NCBI RefSeq assembly: GCF_000422545.1
Contig: NZ_AULZ01000010.1
Coordinates: 1 to 64,000 of the forward strand
Origin: Desulfocurvibacter africanus subsp. africanus DSM 2603
Lineage (GTDB): Bacteria > Desulfobacterota > Desulfovibrionia > Desulfovibrionales > Desulfovibrionaceae
Direction of reading: 5' to 3'
Length of the DNA: 64,000 nucleotides
The notes below the pieces were generated by a model that ran no database searches, was not told the DNA's origin, and worked only from the letters and a program-made list of their open reading frames with translations. Made by a program: the position numbers and the translations under genes. Position 1 is the first letter of the stretch. Every line of letters starts with the position of its first letter. Below, in pieces: positions 10,197 through 32,755 of the stretch.

Positions 10197-11039
10197 TCAC
10201 GCCCGCGCCAGCACCAGCACGTCAACCACGCTTGCGCCCGCCGCTTTGAGCACCAGGGCGCACTGCTCGATGGTCGCACCAGTGGTCATGATGTCGTCCA
10301 CCAGCAGCACGCGGCGGCCCTCGACCTGGGCCTCGTCCGCGCGGAAGGCTCCTAGCAGGTTGATGCGCCTGGTTCTGGCGTCCAGCCGGGCCTGGGGCGG
10401 CGTGTGCCGGATGCGCATGAGCGCCGAGTGACACAGGGGCCGGTCAAGCGCATGGGCCAGGTCGCGGGCCAGCTCCAAAGATTGATTGTAGCCGCGCCAG
10501 GCCAAGCGGCGTGGATGCAAGGGCACGGGAGCCAGCAGGTCTGGCAGACCCGAGCCGCCGCGAAGGAAGAAGGCCTCGGCAGCCAATGCTTGCAAGAGTC
10601 TTGCATGGCCAAGCCCCTGGCGGAACTTGAAGGCCAGCAGGATGTCCTTGAGCAGCCCGGCATACGGGCCATGGAAGAAGAAGGAATCCCAAGGCTTGGG
10701 CGTGCGCAGACACTCCGCGCACAGATGCGGCGGATCGTCCGCCTGGGCGTACAGCTCGCCGCAACTGGGGCAGTAGCCGGCCAGGCGCGGGGCCAGTTCG
10801 CGGGCGCAGGCAGCACAGAGCACGACATCGCAGACGGGCGAATCGGTCGCGCGCAGATCATAACAGGCAAGGCAGCGCTCTTTGAATAGCGCCACGCCGG
10901 CGGCCAGCCTCAGAACCCGCATTGCGGCTCGACCGAAGGCCGCAGGCATGACTTGTCCAGACATGCGCAGCAGGGTCGCAAGCCTGCCAGCCAGGTTCAG
11001 GCGCGCCAGACCGAACCACTCTTTTCCCAGCCTGCTCAT
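10197..11039 (-). CDS. comF: ComF-family phosphoribosyltransferase-like protein
   Basis: 280-residue cytoplasmic protein of the ComF/GntX family, linked in other bacteria to DNA uptake and use. It has two zinc-type Cys clusters (CLACYD...CAACA, CPSCGE...CAEC), then a phosphoribosyltransferase domain with HPRRLAWRGYNQS and the PRPP loop VLLVDDIMTTGAT near the C-terminus. The start ATG at 11039 gives MSRLGKEW and avoids overlap with the upstream gene; a longer reading (to 11162) would run inside that gene. It is the last gene of a five-gene minus-strand run. Confidence 0.85.
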   Translation of the reverse strand: MSRLGKEWFGLARLNLAGRLATLLRMSGQVMPAAFGRAAMRVLRLAAGVALFKERCLACYDLRATDSPVCDVVLCAACARELAPRLAGYCPSCGELYAQADDPPHLCAECLRTPKPWDSFFFHGPYAGLLKDILLAFKFRQGLGHARLLQALAAEAFFLRGGSGLPDLLAPVPLHPRRLAWRGYNQSLELARDLAHALDRPLCHSALMRIRHTPPQARLDARTRRINLLGAFRADEAQVEGRRVLLVDDIMTTGATIEQCALVLKAAGASVVDVLVLARA

Positions 11040-11067
11040 CGCCGATTCGAGCCGTCCTGGGGCGAGC

Positions 11068-11673
11068 TCAAGCCGGATGATCCAAGGACCGCCAAGCAGC
11101 CGCTCCGCTTTCGCGCAGCAGGGCGCAGGCGGCCTCATCGGCAGCCAAGTCGTCCGGTCCATCCTTGCCGCGCAAGGTCAGCGGCTCGGACAAGGCGTAT
11201 TTGAAATTGACTAGGAAGTACTTGAGGGTCAGCAGGCTGCCCTCGAACAGACGTTCGCCCGTGGGCCGCCCGGCGACCAGCATCACGTGGGCCGTGCGCC
11301 GGGGCAAGCCGGTGATGGACGGGTCCAGGGCCATGCCCTTCTCGTAGTAGGACTGGCTGCGGTCGATGAAGGCCTTGAAGTGCGCGGGCAGATGGTAAAA
11401 ATAGATGGGCGAGGCGAACAATACGAAGGGCGCTGTGAGCAGGAGGCCGAACAGCTCCTCGGCCTGGTCCCTGTCGGCCAGCACGCAACGCCGGCCTGGT
11501 GAACGGCGGCAGGCCCCGCAGCCGAGGCAAGGCTCGATGGCATAGTCGGCAAGGCGCACTTCGCGCGCATCGCCGCCCGCCTGGCGCAATCCCGCCAGGA
11601 ACATTCGCGCCGCCATGTCGCTGTTGCCGCCCTGGCGCGGGCTGCAGCGGAAGATTACGGGCGGCGCTGTCAC
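11068..11673 (-). CDS. NADPH-dependent FMN reductase / iron-sulfur flavoprotein-like
   Basis: Flavodoxin-fold protein of 201 residues, probably binding FMN (CSPRQGGNSD at the N-terminus, FASPIYFYHLPAHFKAFIDR for the flavin site). A Cys cluster (Cys49, 52, 55 and 63) sits where iron-sulfur flavoproteins carry a cluster, which suggests one-electron transfer. The C-terminal part (from about 150) looks variable. The gene starts 10 bp after the stop of the predicted selenoprotein gene, so the two are almost certainly co-transcribed. Confidence 0.85.
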   Translation of the reverse strand: MTAPPVIFRCSPRQGGNSDMAARMFLAGLRQAGGDAREVRLADYAIEPCLGCGACRRSPGRRCVLADRDQAEELFGLLLTAPFVLFASPIYFYHLPAHFKAFIDRSQSYYEKGMALDPSITGLPRRTAHVMLVAGRPTGERLFEGSLLTLKYFLVNFKYALSEPLTLRGKDGPDDLAADEAACALLRESGAAAWRSLDHPA

Positions 11674-11683
11674 GGCAATACCC

Positions 11684-11905
11684 TCAGGCCGTCCGCGTCA
11701 GGCGCACCAGCATGTGGCCTTCGCGCGGCTCGGAAGTCAGGTTCCAGCCCATGTCCGGAGCCAGATGCGCCTGGATCTGGCGCACGGCCTTGTCCTGGAC
11801 CAAGGCTTCCACCACGTCGACCCGACCGAAACGGAGATACCAACCTATCTCCAGTCCGACCCCTCAACACTTCTCGCGCAGGTCGAGGAATATGCTCCCG
11901 GCCAT
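11684..11905 (-). CDS. Candidate TusA/SirA-like selenoprotein with in-frame UGA
   Basis: A 73-codon gene interrupted only by UGA at codon 14 (11864-11866), giving LDLREKC-U-GVGLEIGWYL. The start has a strong ribosome site (AAGGAGAG, 7 nt before ATG), and reading continues to TGA at 11684. The residues fit the TusA/SirA two-layer fold: LD.R..C at the usual active site (Cys13, with UGA at 14 in place of Pro of CPxP), then DKAVRQIQAHLAPDMGW and a closing beta hairpin. A perfect stem-loop starts 11 nt after the UGA. It lies between the MBL hydrolase and FMN reductase genes, so a sulfur- or selenium-transfer or redox role is plausible. The alternative is a nonsense-mutated pseudogene. No selA/B/C/D gene is in the window. 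Confidence 0.75.
11833..11852 (-). promoter_or_regulatory. Predicted bacterial SECIS hairpin
   Basis: On the minus strand GGAGATA pairs perfectly with TATCTCC around a GGTTGG loop. The stem starts 11 nt, and the loop 18 nt, after the in-frame UGA. The loop opens with G. This matches the known spacing and loop rule for bacterial SECIS elements read by SelB. Confidence 0.75.
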
Positions 11906-11962: not shown

Positions 11963-12589
11963 TCAATCGGCGAAGGCGGACAAAAAAGGGTTGTTCAACT
12001 CCTCATCCCCCACGCTCGTCTCCGGGCCGTGGCCCGAATAGACCACGGTCTCCTTGGGCAGGCTGAATATCTTGTCGCGCACCGAGCGCTTGAGGGCCTC
12101 CAGGCTTCCGCCCGGAAAGTCCGTGCGGCCGACGGAGCGGTAGAACAGCAGATCGCCCACGAATACGGAACGTCCCTGGGGGAAATGGAAAGACAGGCTG
12201 CCGGGCGTGTGGCCGGGAGTGGCCAACACATGGCAGGCCAGGCCGATGAACTCCGCGGGGCCTTCCTCCAGAGGAGTGAACTCGAAGTCTGGAACCTTGG
12301 GAAAGCCCATGAACCCGCCGCCGCCCACTGGCGTGTCCAGCAAAAACTCGTCGGCTCGGCTGGCCATGATCGGCGCGCCCGTGGCCTTGGCCAGAACCGA
12401 GTTGCCGAAGATGTGATCAAAGTGCAGATGCGTGGCCAGGATGGTTTCCAGGCTCAGCTTCTCGTCGCGCAGGAAGTCGAGGATCTCCCGCGGGTCGCCG
12501 CCCGGATCGATAGCCAGGGCGCGGCCTGCGTTGTCCACGACATAGGCGTTGGTTTCCAGCGGTCCGAGAGCGAAGGACGTCACACGCAT
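11963..12589 (-). CDS. MBL-fold metallo-hydrolase (glyoxalase II-like)
   Basis: Metal-dependent hydrolase of 208 residues with the canonical THLHFDH motif (His54, His56, Asp58, His59), a later GHTPGS, VGDLLF (bridging Asp) and YSGHGPET. It belongs to the glyoxalase II / persulfide-dioxygenase-like group, but I see no feature that separates thioester hydrolase from sulfur-oxidising activity. The start at 12589 follows GGAGGAATT and overlaps the tail of the nitroreductase gene region. A longer frame upstream is just the nitroreductase gene read out of frame. It lies immediately upstream of the candidate selenoprotein gene. Confidence 0.9.
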   Translation of the reverse strand: MRVTSFALGPLETNAYVVDNAGRALAIDPGGDPREILDFLRDEKLSLETILATHLHFDHIFGNSVLAKATGAPIMASRADEFLLDTPVGGGGFMGFPKVPDFEFTPLEEGPAEFIGLACHVLATPGHTPGSLSFHFPQGRSVFVGDLLFYRSVGRTDFPGGSLEALKRSVRDKIFSLPKETVVYSGHGPETSVGDEELNNPFLSAFAD

Positions 12590-12590
12590 G

Positions 12591-13109
12591 CTATAATTCC
12601 TCCAAAAGCAGTTCTGCCAATTCCTTTCGCGAGGACACGCCAGGATGCGCCGGCCGTCCCAGGGCGATGACCGCCTGCAACTCCAAAAGCCGCGAATCCA
12701 GAGACAGCGCGTCCATGACTTGCGGCGAGTGGTTGATGATCTCTCCGAGCCACACCCCGCCCAAGTCCAGGGCATGCGCGGCCAGCAACATGTTCTGGAT
12801 GCACGCGCCCGCGCTCTGATGGTCCTTGGCCTCGTGGTACATGGCCTCGCGGTCCAGGAATACACAGATCAAGGCCGAGGCGGAGCGCAGGATGGGCGCA
12901 TACTTGCTGCATGAGGCCAAAGCTTCCTGGCGGGCGTCGCCGGCCTGGATCACCAGAAAGCGCCAAGGCTGATTATTTAGCCCGCTGGGCGCCCAACGGC
13001 CGGCTTCGAGTATGCGCAGAAGCTCCTCGCGCGTCACCGGATCGCCCGTGTACCTGCGCACGCTGCGACGTTCGCGGATGGCGGTAAGGACAGGATTTTG
13101 CCGTTCCAT
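12591..13109 (-). CDS. Nitroreductase-family protein
   Basis: FMN-dependent NAD(P)H oxidoreductase of 172 residues. AIRERRSVRRYTGDPV and LEAGRWAPSGLNNQPWRF are the family's FMN-binding segments, and QNMLLAAHALDLGGVWLGE is the dimer-interface helix. The start at 13109 follows AAGGAGGAG; residues from a longer reading upstream are not part of the family. It heads the five-gene run nitroreductase, MBL hydrolase, TusA-like, FMN reductase, comF. The substrate cannot be told from sequence. Confidence 0.9.
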   Translation of the reverse strand: MERQNPVLTAIRERRSVRRYTGDPVTREELLRILEAGRWAPSGLNNQPWRFLVIQAGDARQEALASCSKYAPILRSASALICVFLDREAMYHEAKDHQSAGACIQNMLLAAHALDLGGVWLGEIINHSPQVMDALSLDSRLLELQAVIALGRPAHPGVSSRKELAELLLEEL

Positions 13110-32596: not shown

Positions 32597-32671
32597 GGGC
32601 CGTTAACTCAGCGGTAGAGTATCTGCCTTTTAAGCAGAGAGTCGTTGGTTCGAACCCAACACGGCCCACCA
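32597..32671 (+). tRNA. tRNA-Lys (anticodon TTT)
   Basis: 75 nt. Acceptor arms GGGCCGT and ACGGCCC pair fully. The anticodon loop CTTTTAA gives TTT, the T arm reads GTTGGTTCGAACCCAAC, the discriminator is A and CCA is encoded. Confidence 0.96.
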
Positions 32672-32679
32672 AATAGCGC

Positions 32680-32755
32680 GTCCCCATCGTCTAGTGGCCT
32701 AGGACGTCGGCCTCTCACGCCGATAACACCGGTTCAAACCCGGTTGGGGACGCCA
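32680..32755 (+). tRNA. tRNA-Glu (anticodon CTC)
   Basis: 76 nt. GTCCCCA pairs with TGGGGAC; the anticodon loop reads CTCTCAC with anticodon CTC; the T arm is CCGGTTCAAACCCGG; the discriminator is G and CCA is encoded. The phage integrase gene begins about 100 bp downstream, so the 3' end of this tRNA is the likely attachment site. Confidence 0.96.

Follow-up and report, generated by a model that had tools for sequence, protein, structure and literature searches.

The locus considered here raises the question of whether a UGA codon that interrupts a short reading frame is a stop at all, or rather the selenocysteine (Sec) codon of a small protein and, if the latter, what such a protein might do. 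It lies in the first 64,000 nucleotides of contig NZ_AULZ01000010.1 of Desulfocurvibacter africanus subsp. africanus DSM 2603, the whole of which stretch was analysed and is called the window below. The original prediction was of a selenoprotein with a TusA/SirA-like fold, and what it described in the DNA is all present: on the minus strand there is a 73-codon frame with a ribosome site, whose sole internal UGA comes after a Cys codon; 11 nt past the UGA begins a 7-bp stem with a GGUUGG loop, to which folding adds one flanking U-G pair; and the gaps are as claimed, with 57 nt from the stop of the MBL gene to the ATG and 10 nt from the stop of the interrupted gene to the GTG that begins the FMN reductase gene. 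The features, all on the minus strand, are as follows.

11684..11905, minus strand: putative selenoprotein coding sequence, 73 residues counting Sec14, then stop
11684..11905, minus strand: predicted product from translation and homologues, MAGSIFLDLREKCUGVGLEIGWYLRFGRVDVVEALVQDKAVRQIQAHLAPDMGWNLTSEPREGHMLVRLTRTA
11905..11903, minus strand: start codon ATG, first of 13 codons of which the last is Cys, then UGA, then 59 codons
11912..11917, minus strand: Shine-Dalgarno-like AAGGAG, 6 nt 5' of the ATG
11864..11866, minus strand: in-frame UGA, predicted to be read as Sec (residue 14), immediately after Cys13
11686..11684, minus strand: terminal stop TGA of the same gene
11833..11852, minus strand: putative bSECIS hairpin, stem GGAGAUA/UAUCUCC, starting 11 nt past the UGA
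11845..11840, minus strand: loop GGUUGG of that hairpin, 18 nt from UGA to loop
11068..11673, minus strand: NADPH-dependent FMN reductase family gene (PF03358), downstream, GTG start, CxxCxxC...C motif, conserved neighbour
11963..12589, minus strand: MBL-fold hydrolase gene (PF00753), upstream, conserved neighbour
12591..13109, minus strand: nitroreductase family gene (PF00881), start codon picked by eye
10197..11162, minus strand: ComF-like phosphoribosyltransferase open reading frame, start uncertain, overlapping the FMN reductase gene; conserved neighbour

Two adjacent tRNA genes are recognized by Rfam elsewhere in the window (32597-32752, plus strand). Neither a plasmid match nor a PADLOC match was found.

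Judged from homologues carrying the UGA, from the bSECIS-like hairpin and from the sel genes of the genome, the locus almost certainly encodes a selenoprotein, as had been claimed; under the direction of the hairpin, SelB and tRNA-Sec would insert Sec at the UGA of codon 14. That it is a selenoprotein, has a TusA-like fold and bears its Sec at the position of the TusA Cys, all three together, is on sequence comparison and structure prediction highly probable.

Conservation of the UGA and of the selenium machinery

When the Cys version of the protein was used to search 59 related genomes, that of the window included, 40 gave a match at E <= 1, and a UGA homologue with one in-frame TGA, at E <= 1.4e-4, was found in 29 of the 59 (again counting its own). 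Left out of the resulting alignment, A1, were 11 matching genomes, namely G042 and G044, with weak TGA matches, and nine with weak matches only, including G038 with two internal TGA codons; one match among the relatives that lacks a TGA (L030) was set aside. An ATG or GTG start, picked by eye, lies at a similar place in 29/29 members, many of them with ribosome-like sites. Only D8, C13, Sec14, L24 and W54 are invariant among the 29, and the DLRxKC segment on the N-terminal side of Sec is also conserved. The motif at Sec is CUG[VLI] in most, with CUH, CUR, CUA or CUK in others.

A wider scan of named genomes, in which the Sec codon was left open (X) and the pattern demanded a Cys before it, returned TGA at the open codon in 41/41 loci, from records named Desulfovibrio, Pseudodesulfovibrio, Solidesulfovibrio, Humidesulfovibrio, Nitratidesulfovibrio, Desulfonatronovibrio and others. 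Across the class, represented by one genome per species, the family profile matches 170 of 348 genomes at E <= 0.01. An in-frame TGA is present in 161 of these (150 rows, one per genome and all with TGA, plus 11 of 16 further genomes inspected) and absent in five, which comprise one Cys ortholog, three Cys paralogues and one chance match; the remaining four, G107, G108, G111 and G282, were uninspected. Two of the 150 rows have two TGA codons and one has an additional TAA. Where the original prediction had looked to homologues with Cys or Sec at this site and a hairpin downstream, one thus finds Sec in 161 genomes of the class, few Cys forms and a conserved hairpin. In a sample of the phylum, 7/395 genomes matched, these being its own, five more of its own family and one weak match elsewhere, so that the protein family looks essentially confined to Desulfovibrionia. 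Within those bounds it is, as these genome counts indicate, common to well over a hundred species of sulfate reducers and their relatives.

The residue that precedes the UGA could be assessed by direct reading of the site, a procedure in which Cys contributed one of ten points, with seven needed, and so was not demanded. From 124 loci given, L147, L148 and L153 were dropped because they have no TGA, leaving 121 loci and 100 distinct sequences, among which the residue before the TGA is Cys in 99 and Gly in one; an earlier pass had sought Cys-TGA only, and its "always Cys" is circular. The sole sequence with Gly before Sec, L154 (G227:C13:34072-34260), suggests that the protein may be able to do without the vicinal Cys. 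Downstream of the UGA, dN/dS is below 1 in 181/185 pairs, with a median of 0.29 (codons 12-30 after the UGA; 190 pairs at 70-95% DNA identity, of which 5 were saturated).

Some outlying sequences may be recorded here. L135 (G295) has an extra TAA and looks degenerate, and L155 (G313) has diverged and does not pass the hairpin test described below; either may represent a loss in progress. Outside the class, L167 (G627:C46:20960-21178) reads DSRKDCUK with one in-frame TGA, a weak match (E 0.0044) from a genome with a tRNA-Sec at 74.4 bits, and is a possible distant member.

The genome of the window has selA, selB, selD and selC (tRNA-Sec, 86.1 bits), the machinery for which a check had been proposed; its selD itself contains a TGA, and there are two formate dehydrogenases with an in-frame TGA. 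Among the 59 relatives, a tRNA-Sec above 70 bits accompanies the gene in 29/29 carriers and SelB is over cut-off in 28/29, the exception being G014, an assembly of 430 contigs. The gene is absent from all six relatives without a tRNA-Sec above 70 bits (Fisher p 0.024), two of these six being less than 70% complete. A natural replacement is seen in G074, whose ortholog L147 (G074:C7:10374-10589), situated between the MBL and FMN reductase genes, has Cys-Pro-Cys in place of Cys-UGA and lacks any hairpin that fits the bSECIS rules. No true tRNA-Sec was found in G074, where the best match, at 46.8 bits, is at the level of other tRNAs; with the genome about 85% complete, its absence is suggestive only. 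The genus-mates G042 and G073 keep Cys-UGA, hairpin and tRNA-Sec. The gene and selB converge in G030 (G030:C6:66763-69978), about 1.1 kb apart, possibly by chance.

The hairpin downstream of the UGA

The rules for bacterial SECIS (bSECIS) elements, as given in a 2026 review, specify a loop of 3-9 nt on a stem of 4-16 bp, a G in the first two loop positions, a spacing of 16-37 nt and an energy of at most -7.5 kcal/mol (PMC13188914). The window hairpin satisfies every one of these, with a stem of 7 to 8 pairs, a loop of 6 beginning GG, a spacing of 18 and energies of -10.3 to -17.7 in cuts of 31-56 nt, in agreement with the original prediction. The GGU of its loop is the seventh codon past the UGA, the same place as the GGU in E. 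coli fdhF, for which a 48-nt sequence was compared and confirmed as identical. Taken alone, the window fold is mildly unusual (z -2.01, -1.03 and -2.07 in three cuts and -2.38 in a fourth), and it is conservation across the family, not the fold of a single sequence, that places the hairpin beyond chance. With the stem required to be >= 6 bp, 94/100 distinct family sequences fit the bSECIS rules, vs 12.2% of TGA sites drawn at random from those loci (n = 3000), the six failures being L017, L020, L027, L029, L152 and L155. A shifted hairpin of GAUGCC/GGCAUC type, with the loop AGUU, takes the place of the common 7-bp stem in L020, L021, L027, L029, L142 and L144.

Because the hairpin lies within coding sequence, its pairing has to be set against what the protein would impose. 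A mean of 6.47 of the 7 stem pairs is formed over the 100 distinct sequences, vs 4.54 +- 0.09 on synonymous resampling with the codon usage of the same genes (2000 runs; a small pool, with only three Tyr codons, all TAC) and 4.60 +- 0.10, maximum 4.98, with the usage of 162 neighbouring genes (2000 runs). Synonymous permutation within columns gives 6.07 pairs, with a maximum of 6.18 (2000 runs). At the Leu position where the stem closes, 90/100 sequences use CTC, as set against 722/3483 Leu codons in the neighbouring genes. Counted for the named structure in 92 distinct rows, 92.2% of cells are paired and 45 cells are changed on both sides, vs 5.4 in shuffles, with the proviso that the 100 sequences are related to one another, so that shuffle counts are not probabilities. 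Structures slid along the alignment all score lower for pairing, for double changes and for covariation, though two of them are equal in the number of pair types; the measure of further pair types is reached by 42/500 shuffles and by two slid versions. RNAalifold gives no consensus pair on the 100-sequence alignment, and Rfam has no match on the hairpin. As far as these alignments can tell, the hairpin is under RNA-level selection beyond the protein code.

Fold, Cys paralogues and the position of Sec

The claim of a TusA/SirA-like fold is borne out by prediction and structural alignment, the likeness being one of fold only. AlphaFold2, given 29 sequences, predicts a beta-alpha-beta-alpha-beta-beta order with pLDDT 92.8 and pTM 0.80, in which the first strand precedes the UGA and the vicinal pair Cys13-Sec14 stands just before the first helix. 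The best alignment by VIA-align is to SirA-like 3hz7 (Z 10.1, 69 aligned, rmsd 2.0), followed by the SirA-like domain of TsuA-TsuB (Z 9.8) and TusA (Z 8.5); an unrelated Alba protein, at Z 7.7, comes above the TusA entry 1dcj, at Z 7.5. Foldseek likewise ranks 3hz7 first among PDB entries, at E 8.3e-3, with unrelated folds from 2.4e-2 and no PDB match at E <= 0.001. At the level of sequence, Pfam TusA (PF01206) has no match at E <= 1 in the 29 members, and no Pfam or NCBIfam (release 20.0, June 2026) model matches them, the best NCBIfam hit being an unrelated model at E 0.077. Against local TusA proteins (20 loci, with L185, L187 and L188 left out of alignment A3) hhalign gives a weak probability of 30%, and the family profile finds only two entries among PDB sequences, both from one unrelated plant protein (E about 0.75).

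The closest relatives found of the putative selenoprotein belong to a second small family of Cys-only "xCGLVPxI" proteins in the same genomes (alignment A4), with members L031/L158 (in its own genome, G000:C1:480978-481184), L032, L148, L153, L157, L159-L161, L168 and L169. The two families align in hhalign with a probability of 98.6% and E 5.8e-16, Cys falling on Sec. They are of similar length and differ in that the paralogues have no UGA, lie in other surroundings and have another C-terminal tail, often ending L-x-L-L-D-Y/F. No gene of the selenoprotein operon was found within about 1.5 kb at nine paralogue loci, and no Pfam or NCBIfam model matched the three paralogues tested.

Where exactly the Sec stands is a point on which the original prediction does not survive. 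It had Sec replacing the Pro of the CPxP site, and counting from the conserved D8 it is instead the TusA Cys that Sec matches, with Gly at the place of Pro. The Cys of the paralogues aligns, in turn, to the Cys of CPxP in TusA (probability 74%). The structural alignments begin by pairing residue 2 with 7 of 1dcj and residue 4 with 1 of 3hz7, chains whose Cys is at 19 and 11, respectively, and these offsets fit the register of Sec on Cys if there is no gap before residue 14. The paralogue alignments and the structural offsets together indicate that Sec would stand for the sulfur-carrying Cys and that Gly follows where TusA has Pro; the CPxP motif itself is absent from the family.

It is against this fold and this hairpin that other readings of the UGA are best weighed. 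One might suppose that the locus makes a short peptide of about 13 codons and a separate downstream product, reached by re-initiation or frameshift, with the hairpin regulating translation, and the conservation of DLRxKC in the peptide part is something that such an arrangement would also accommodate. Yet the segments on the two sides of the UGA join in a single, confidently predicted TusA-like fold with its first strand ahead of the UGA, the Cys paralogues and the Cys-Pro-Cys ortholog are uninterrupted frames that align across the site, and the spacing and loop of the hairpin fit the bSECIS rules; we reject this reading as scarcely credible. Slighter still is the chance that the gene is decaying and the UGA a plain stop codon. 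A nonsense-mutated pseudogene could claim the degenerate look of two genomes, G295 with its extra TAA and the diverged G313, but not the in-frame TGA of the 161 class genomes, at the same codon in the 121 loci read, nor the purifying selection after the UGA, the conserved hairpin and the start codon at a similar place in every aligned member. That the UGA is read as Trp or some other residue with no involvement of selenium is a general possibility only, of negligible probability here, for the residue that replaces UGA is Cys, tRNA-Sec accompanies the gene in all 29 carriers and the six genomes without it lack the gene, and UGA also serves as terminal stop in 24/29 family genes and is thus not reassigned throughout.

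Neighbouring genes and possible function

In the distinct sequences whose flanking DNA was long enough to judge, the FMN reductase gene lies downstream within 1.2 kb in 84/99, the ComF gene downstream in 80/95, the MBL gene upstream in 69/97 and the nitroreductase gene upstream in 56/97. All 84 of the 84 neighbouring flavoproteins have the CxxCxxC...C motif, as do archaeal iron-sulfur flavoproteins. The flavoprotein gene is not next door in 15/99. In six of nine loci read that lack the usual operon (L038, L061, L062, L066, L068 and L079, from Solidesulfovibrio-type genomes and another genome), a GDT1-type divalent cation transporter gene immediately precedes the selenoprotein gene, an assignment (PF01169) tested against Pfam on the L068 piece only. 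The loci without an adjacent flavoprotein and the lineage with the GDT1-type gene together indicate that partnership with the flavoprotein is not obligatory.

A sulfur/selenium relay or redox role had been suggested for the protein at the outset. Our own suggestion, offered tentatively as a real possibility, is that the Cys-Sec pair makes the protein a redox or chalcogen carrier, with the flavoprotein encoded alongside as its probable partner. The small, soluble protein would present the vicinal pair Cys13-Sec14, the Sec attacking a polysulfide, persulfide, selenide or disulfide substrate and Cys13 then closing a selenenylsulfide, which in most sequences the adjacent FMN-reductase-family protein, with its CxxCxxC...C motif, would re-reduce. 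Mammalian thioredoxin reductase has a C-terminal Gly-Cys-Sec-Gly that is reduced by a flavin centre; it is an unrelated protein which shares Cys-Sec-Gly and provides an analogy for the mechanism, with the difference that the flavin here would be on a separate protein.

Two other functions deserve consideration, both conditional on selenoprotein identity. The protein may be strictly a TusA-type sulfur/selenium carrier that transfers persulfide or perselenide (SelD as donor or acceptor would be one example, the tRNA and molybdenum cofactor pathways others), and not a carrier of electrons. A TusA fold in which Sec takes the place of the TusA Cys speaks for this, as does the connection that two papers draw between SirA-like proteins and selenium metabolism (PMC2432076, PMC5322559). 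Against it are the replacement of CPxP by CUG and similar motifs, the retention of the vicinal Cys in 99/100 sequences and the character of the neighbours tested for and found, which are redox-type or MBL genes, and on balance we regard it as rather unlikely. Less probable again is a Cys-Sec pair that serves as a metal or metalloid ligand, in trafficking or detoxification. The gene of one lineage does follow that for a GDT1-type cation transporter, and several of the "CU" selenoproteins in the 2026 catalogue are metal-linked (PMC13188914), but the GDT1-like neighbour is confined to the six of nine operon-less loci noted above and no other conserved ligand residues appear among the 29 aligned members.

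Several known systems resemble the protein. With TusA/SirA (PF01206; E. coli TusA, 3lvj; Desulfitobacterium SirA-like, 3hz7) it shares the fold over the whole length and an active residue that likewise follows the first strand, and it differs in having Sec for Cys, Gly for the first Pro, an extra vicinal Cys and weak profile similarity. YedF (TIGR03527) shares the SirA-like fold and a selenium setting and has a second DsrE-like domain and CPxP (PMC5322559), whereas the protein considered here is a single domain of 73 residues with no TIGR03527 match. The vicinal Cys-Sec is shared with the "CU" selenoproteins KCU-star, MerB-like SaoL, HgcA, SaoC, SaoB, MbdU and CopZ-like form 2, all listed in the 2026 review (PMC13188914); these are other families, and no NCBIfam model matches the 29 members here.

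That review tabulates 119 selenoprotein families and subfamilies, and no TusA-fold selenoprotein of this kind is in its table (PMC13188914). Nor is there a Sec-containing SirA/TusA protein in the accessible text of the literature matches listed (including PMC9312934, PMC12013277, PMC1914089, PMC2432076, PMC5322559 and PMC4210487). An old entry, "Hypothetical protein GOS_A", carries neither accession nor domain in the 2022 table and so is not separable by name (PMC9312934). Set against the catalogues checked, its fold and its near-constant Sec apparently make this a new family of bacterial selenoproteins. Gene callers that stop at UGA presumably overlook the gene or annotate it wrongly. The authors of deep-Sep remark that every known selenoprotein now appears to have a Cys homologue, and that selenoproteins lacking one may be lost by their method (PMC12013277). 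The present family comes close to that blind spot, and more such families may therefore be hidden.

If the selenoprotein reading is correct, the family would tend to escape any prediction method that requires Cys homologues, and the list of about 119 would gain a widespread member, with TGA in 161 genomes of the class. It is possible, if on the doubtful side, that the whole picture holds: a family almost exclusively in the Sec form and widely kept in Desulfovibrionia, which would be the first of TusA fold to bear Sec at the sulfur-carrier position, and whose product acts as a small, diffusible carrier of the Cys-Sec type that is coupled to an Fe-S flavoprotein. In bacteria responsible for much of the anaerobic sulfur cycle, Sec would then occupy a fold familiar from sulfur carriers, and a small carrier so coupled would amount to a novel type of electron or chalcogen shuttle based on selenium.
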